Shown: positions 27,341-34,436 of the stretch, piece by piece
Layout of the letters: the number at the start of each line of letters is the position of its first letter
How positions within the stretch are numbered: position 1 is the first letter of the stretch
Source of the DNA: an uncultured Alphaproteobacteria bacterium
Lineage (GTDB): Bacteria > Pseudomonadota > Alphaproteobacteria > Methylaequorales > Methylaequoraceae
DNA length: 64,000 nt
Direction: 5' to 3'
Assembly: GCA_902579395.1 (NCBI GenBank)
Contig: CACHGK010000003.1
Coordinates: 1 to 64,000 of the forward strand
Made by a program: the position numbers and the translations under genes
Notes under the pieces: model-generated
The model's input: the letters and a program-made list of their open reading frames with translations, nothing else
Database searches by the model: none
What the model was told of the DNA's origin: nothing

Positions 27341-27342
27341 TG

Positions 27343-27416
27343 TGGTGCCCTCTACTGGTTACGCTCCAGTGGCTGAGTCTTACCAAGACCCTGTTTTACT
27401 ATTAAACTAAGAGGGC
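27343..27416 (-). tRNA. tRNA-Thr(GGT)-like cloverleaf, atypical elbow; possible divergent tRNA or tRNA-like leader element
   Basis: GCCCTCT TA GTTT-AATAGTA-AAAC A GGGTC-TTGGTAA-GACTC AGCC ACTGG-AGCGTAA-CCAGT AGAGGGC ACCA; all four stems pair (one G-U); T-loop is not TTCRANY. Confidence 0.6.
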
Positions 27417-34356: not shown

Positions 34357-34429
34357 GCCCAGGTAGCTCAGTTGGTAGAGCAAGCGACTGAAAATCGCTG
34401 TGTCGGTGGTTCAATTCCTCCCCTGGGCA
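34357..34429 (+). tRNA. tRNA-Phe (anticodon GAA)
   Basis: GCCCAGG...GCTCAGTTGGTAGAGC...AGCGA-CTGAAAA-TCGCT...TTCAATT...CCTGGGC-A; full CCA not encoded (ACCT). Confidence 0.95.
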
Positions 34430-34436
34430 CCTTGTT

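Follow-up and report, generated by a model that had tools for sequence, protein, structure and literature searches.

The T-loop of tRNA is held by a trans Watson-Crick/Hoogsteen pair between U54 and A58 and by the contacts U55-G18 and C56-G19 (PMC7912444), and proteins, RNase P and the ribosome all make use of the exposed G19-C56 pair (PMC4810234). G18, U54, U55 and A58 are regarded as highly conserved, and conserved modification enzymes are said to act on them. Working tRNAs that depart from this arrangement are known: eukaryotic tRNA-Ala(AGC) carries A54/A58 together with R15/A48, unusual pairs that, according to that study, do not occur in bacterial or archaeal tRNAs (PMC7566577), and metazoan mitochondrial tRNAs tolerate non-consensus D- and T-loops in translation (PMC4394434, PMC4810234). 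As both of these deviate from it, the consensus elbow appears to be typical of elongator tRNAs, not defining for them. The tRNAs of HIMB59 were annotated in an earlier study, in which no mention of an odd elbow was found (PMC3937112). The literature searched yielded no earlier report of HIMB59 tRNA oddities or of non-canonical bacterial T-loops, which is not proof of absence.

The window analysed here, a single stretch of DNA of 64,000 nucleotides, contains a gene that shares with the bacterial elongator tRNA-Thr(GGU) (RF00005) the cloverleaf, the anticodon, the G1-C72 and C2-G71 pairs, an encoded CCA and the position of the only G34 species in the Thr box, but in which A18, A54, G55, U58, A60 and A15/C48 replace the usual letters. 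Like eukaryotic tRNA-Ala(AGC), it would be a working tRNA in which positions 54/58 and 15/48 have changed together and position 60 is a purine (PMC7566577); the eukaryotic species has A54/A58 and A48, whereas A54/U58, G55 and A18 are found here. It also resembles metazoan mitochondrial tRNAs in its non-consensus loops, but here a single tRNA is concerned, in a free-living bacterium whose tRNA set is otherwise canonical and which also has TruB, and it has full-length arms and keeps G19-C56. An altered D-loop GG and an A49-U65 pair are shared with the non-proteinogenic tRNA-Gly of S. aureus, in which a similar pair is weak for EF-Tu (PMC4052509). Those tRNAs, however, are extra copies beside proteinogenic ones, whereas the present gene is the only GGU tRNA-Thr and retains G19. 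Very probably, it encodes the sole elongator tRNA-Thr(GGU) of its lineage, which ThrRS would charge and which would decode ACU and ACC, with an elbow that has been remodelled in a family probably of HIMB59/AEGEAN-169 type.

Structure of the tRNA-Thr(GGU) gene

ARAGORN called a tRNA-Thr(ggt) at exactly 27343-27416 on the minus strand, and the Rfam tRNA model RF00005, whose gathering cut-off is 29 bits, matched 27346-27416 end to end with 49.4 bits and with every stem paired (Table 1). The gene was missed by a fast whole-window Rfam scan and came above the cut-off in a whole-genome search, in which it scores below the other near-complete tRNA matches of the genome. At minimum energy the sequence folds into the cloverleaf (z = -2.6), composed of the acceptor stem GCCCTCT/AGAGGGC, the D-stem GTTT/AAAC, the T-stem ACTGG/CCAGT and the anticodon stem GGGTC/GACTC, which includes one G-U pair; an A49-U65 pair is also present. 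The sequence has the Thr identity positions G1-C72, C2-G71, G35 and U36. Thr identity resides in the acceptor stem and the anticodon (PMC9976931), and both are intact.

Table 1. Positions of the tRNA-Thr(GGU) gene, its parts and its neighbours in the window
Feature	Position	Strand	Basis or remark
tRNA-Thr(GGU) gene, 74 nt, CCA encoded	27343..27416	(-)	ARAGORN; Rfam RF00005; identical in 19 genomes
D-loop AATAGTA with A18 and an unchanged G19	27397..27403	(-)	Sequence; alignment with sister forms AATGGTA
Anticodon GGU, loop TTGGTAA	27382..27384	(-)	
T-loop AGCGTAA (A54 G55 C56 G57 U58 A59 A60), non-canonical	27359..27365	(-)	Fixed in T1 clade
Discriminator A73 and CCA end, encoded	27343..27346	(-)	Sequence
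tRNA-Phe(GAA), canonical loops; control for conservation and synteny	34357..34432	(+)	
DAACS-type symporter ORF, 403 aa	26129..27340	(-)	Start codon 2 nt past CCA; DAACS name from the original sequence-only prediction

In standard numbering, the tRNA keeps U8, A14, A15, G19, G53-C61, C56 and G57, and it is altered at positions 18 (A in place of G), 54 (A), 55 (G), 58 (U) and 60 (A), with A/C at 15/48. From the consensus elbow, G18G19 / T54 Psi55 C56 R57 A58, it retains only G19, C56 and R57. The changes hit positions that contact one another (18/55, 54/58 and 15/48), and G19-C56, G53-C61, purine 57 and U8-A14 are unchanged. The D-loop numbering was set by alignment with the sister forms described below; the simplest reading of the single D-loop G would be G19, reached by one substitution from AATGGTA to AATAGTA, and a reading as G18 is also possible. 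All other tRNAs called by ARAGORN around the Rfam matches of the genome have a TTCRANY T-loop. The original prediction, which described intact stems and Thr identity positions combined with non-canonical T- and D-loops and held that this was not a genome-wide change of the T-loop, is in each of these respects borne out.

Three elbow states at one locus

Three states of the elbow occur at the same orthologous locus upstream of the symporter. The first (T1), with T-loop AGCGTAA and D-loop AATAGTA, is found in 19 genomes; the second (T2), with T-loop GTCAGTA and AATGGTA or a close variant, in genera g2, g4, g10 and g12; and a canonical T-loop, TTCGACT, together with AATGGTTA, in G007 (genus g5). 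The public alphaproteobacterial MAG and single-cell records that share the 5' half of the tRNA, which include 'alpha proteobacterium MED-G10 HIMB59', are T1 in 19 of 23 cases and T2 in 4 of 23. In an unrooted symporter tree, the T1 genomes make up one side of a branch with 100/100 support and the T1 state is fixed there; G007 is placed among the T2 genomes with moderate support (94/86), and an origin of T2, a reversal, or a replacement in G007 all fit this tree. In T1, positions 18 and 55 are changed, as are 54 and 58, and positions 19 and 56 are unchanged; T2 has G at both 54 and 58, with G18 and U55 unchanged. The loop changes coincide with tertiary partners, which is suggestive, rather than statistical, evidence of compensation within the elbow, with very few independent events.

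A pattern that requires an encoded CCA and the TTGGTAA loop was searched in 387 alphaproteobacterial genomes, and among the matches listed, which were read by eye, the other alphaproteobacterial GGU tRNA-Thr keep U54 and A58. Also among the matches listed, a tRNA-Thr(GGU) with C55 (T-loop TCCGATT or similar) was seen in several unrelated small-genome families (f21, f24, f37, f73 and f90), from which position 55 of this tRNA appears to drift in other alphaproteobacterial lineages too. A phage origin of T1 was rejected, the T1 pattern being present on no viral contig when one near-exact pattern was searched.

The tRNA-Thr(GGU) is identical at 74/74 nt across 19 genomes from 7 genera, and in ten of these 19 genomes the mean ungapped identity of its 60-nt flanks is 37% upstream and 52% downstream. 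The tRNA-Phe and the tRNA-Thr(UGU) are likewise identical or nearly so over most of the T1 clade; the constraint on tRNA-Thr(GGU), odd loops included, is about equal to that on ordinary elongators, and exceptional conservation was accordingly rejected as a special sign. All four stems covary across the T1, T2 and canonical forms. In the alignment of seven distinct sequences, 98.6% of the cells are paired and 14 of the 21 pairs show a double change; none of 500 shuffles reached as high, the shuffle test being generous owing to relatedness, and slid controls drop to 32-48% paired. The compensatory stem changes among the seven sequences argue that the helices are real and under selection.

The symporter gene and tRNA-ORF packing

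A symporter ortholog lies downstream of tRNA-Thr(GGU) in 26 of the 27 family genomes where it was found, within about a dozen nucleotides in 22; in the remaining genome (G005), the symporter match is limited to residues 125-402. Such proximity, together with a GAGG in the 3' acceptor strand about 9 nt before the symporter ATG, would be expected if the tRNA doubled as the 5' leader of the symporter mRNA (leaderless after maturation, or with the acceptor GAGG as a Shine-Dalgarno sequence), so that the two outputs were coupled and the elbow was shaped by the double role. We consider this improbable. Tight tRNA-ORF junctions are general, some 13 of the 30 tRNAs of the genome having an ORF start 2-20 nt downstream of the CCA, and a block of about 6-9 kb from tRNA-Phe to tRNA-Thr is kept in most of the genomes compared. 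Moreover, another small ORF intervenes in 4 genomes, SD-like motifs are found before only 6 of the 52 window ORFs, and the junction is tight in G007 with its canonical loop too, which leaves the elbow unexplained. In view of the conserved gene block and the many tRNAs that abut ORFs, a second role as leader need not be invoked: the adjacency is general packing and conserved synteny, for which a regulatory role is superfluous. Coupling between tRNA maturation and symporter translation is possible and is not needed for the elbow.

Several further features of gene packing were observed. A small hydrophobic, membrane-like ORF that begins directly behind the tRNA separates it from the symporter in T2 genomes of genera g4, g10 and g12 (L126, L129, L130 and L131), and is absent from this gap in g2 and in the T1 genomes. 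The tRNA-ORF gaps of the window are 27341-27342 and 34433-34436, and the genome-wide loci are L001-L030 (G000); many mRNAs look as if they started at tRNA 3' ends, somewhat like mitochondrial tRNA punctuation, which may simply be tight packing. The 3' 50 nt of tRNA-Thr(UGU) have a second copy, which is separated from the complete gene by about 2-30 kb where the two are on one contig, in G030 (L138, G030:C2:101500-118000), G005, G013, G014, G015, G017, G018, G019 and G024, and, at 85% identity, at G000:C1:8205-8251. An integrase-like ORF (L138 14422-15777) adjoins the tRNA in G030, and the arrangement resembles that of genomic islands which have integrated into the 3' end of tRNA-Thr(UGU).

Probable role of the tRNA-Thr(GGU) in the decoding of threonine

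The assembly comprises 1.30 Mb in 25 contigs, is about 80% complete and gave 31 tRNA matches in the whole-genome Rfam search. Apart from the gene at 27343-27416, no GGU tRNA-Thr was found in this assembly, whose missing part might hold a second copy, and ARAGORN called one tRNA-Thr(UGU); the one weak partial Rfam match (29 bits) is a tRNA-Leu(CAA). Since the Val, Pro, Gly, Leu and Ser boxes of the genome each have a U34 and a G34 tRNA, tRNA-Thr(GGU) takes the G34 place that would be expected in the Thr box and that no other tRNA fills. In the long ORFs of the window, ACU and ACC amount to 361 of 715 Thr codons, or about half. No CmoB match over the cut-off was obtained in 32 family genomes, and tRNA-Thr(UGU) is therefore unlikely to carry the cmo5U34 with which to read ACU and ACC. 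A search of the 32 family genomes for a canonical GGU tRNA, with a pattern that assumes the TTGGTAA anticodon loop and then GTTCRA, gave control-level counts and one genuine tRNA, that of G007. Given its copy number, the constraint on it and the codons to be read, we infer that tRNA-Thr(GGU) is charged and used in translation.

These data bear on the function that was originally proposed for the element. Its maintenance by selection is upheld by the identity of all 74 nt in 19 genomes and by the compensatory stem changes in the sister forms. The further idea, that the element might have ceased to act as a standard elongator, is not supported, as it is the sole GGU tRNA-Thr in the assembly and the same loop is present in relatives. 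A specialised non-elongator, comparable to the peptidoglycan tRNA-Gly of S. aureus, would escape EF-Tu and give its threonine elsewhere, and both the replaced G18 and the A49-U65 pair recall the non-proteinogenic tRNA-Gly of that species (PMC4052509). S. aureus, however, has other, proteinogenic tRNA-Gly genes, whereas no other GGU tRNA-Thr was found here (a genome count of one, in an assembly that is ~80% complete); in addition, ACU and ACC make up half of the Thr codons, CmoB has no match over the cut-off, and G19 is kept. On copy number and constraint, this reading was rejected as very improbable. A decaying copy or pseudogene, which the original prediction had offered as an alternative and with which the consensus departures at 18, 54, 55 and 58 and the comparatively low tRNA score would agree, has practically no chance of being correct, refuted as it is by the identity across genera, the intact stems and lack of stem decay in relatives, the double compensatory changes in the sister forms and the single GGU copy. 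The other alternative that had been named, a functional but divergent tRNA, is the one supported by the sole GGU copy and by the loop kept in relatives; the gene would accordingly specify an elongator tRNA that works with a non-canonical elbow, specific to the lineage and fixed in it.

Modification enzymes and remodelling of the elbow

TruB was matched in 30 of the 32 family genomes, and loss of TruB was rejected on these grounds as the cause of the odd elbow; Psi55 is absent from the T1 tRNA because there is no U55, not because TruB is missing. For TrmFO, none of the 32 family genomes had a match that exceeded the curated cut-off, and the search returned only a stretch of ORFs below the cut-off, mostly of ~620 aa, which are probably an MnmG paralogue. 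Consequently, unless TrmA is present, the whole tRNA set of the family may lack m5U54.

The T1 elbow seems to retain exactly the exposed G19-C56 pair and purine 57 and to lose the remaining contacts. The D- and T-loops would still dock by G19-C56, with purine 57 and G53-C61 as its stacking partners, and the G18-Psi55 and T54-A58 contacts would be replaced by A18/G55 and A54/U58, or else their loss would merely be tolerated. With its elbow letters replaced, the T1 tRNA could not bear Psi55, m5U54 or Gm18 and would work without them. We tentatively raise a bolder possibility, to which we would give well under an even chance: that selection remade the elbow as a whole, with A18/G55, A54-U58 and A15/C48 forming a mutually compensated docking that keeps only G19-C56, as a second working architecture for the elbow of bacterial elongators. 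The driver may have been the evasion of an enzyme that recognises the elbow, or a release from the need for T-loop modification.

Conclusions

Bacterial tRNAs seldom have their normally near-invariant elbow letters replaced throughout a group, as here in ocean bacteria with small genomes, and the present case illustrates that fast-filter searches can overlook real bacterial tRNAs. The series of canonical, GTCAGTA and AGCGTAA forms at one orthologous locus makes the need for the elbow testable by swaps. The T1 elbow, fixed in at least 7 genera, offers a natural experiment to learn which of the elbow contacts are needed by RNase P, EF-Tu and the ribosome: a free-living bacterial lineage appears to read half of its Thr codons with a tRNA that lacks G18, U54, U55 and A58.
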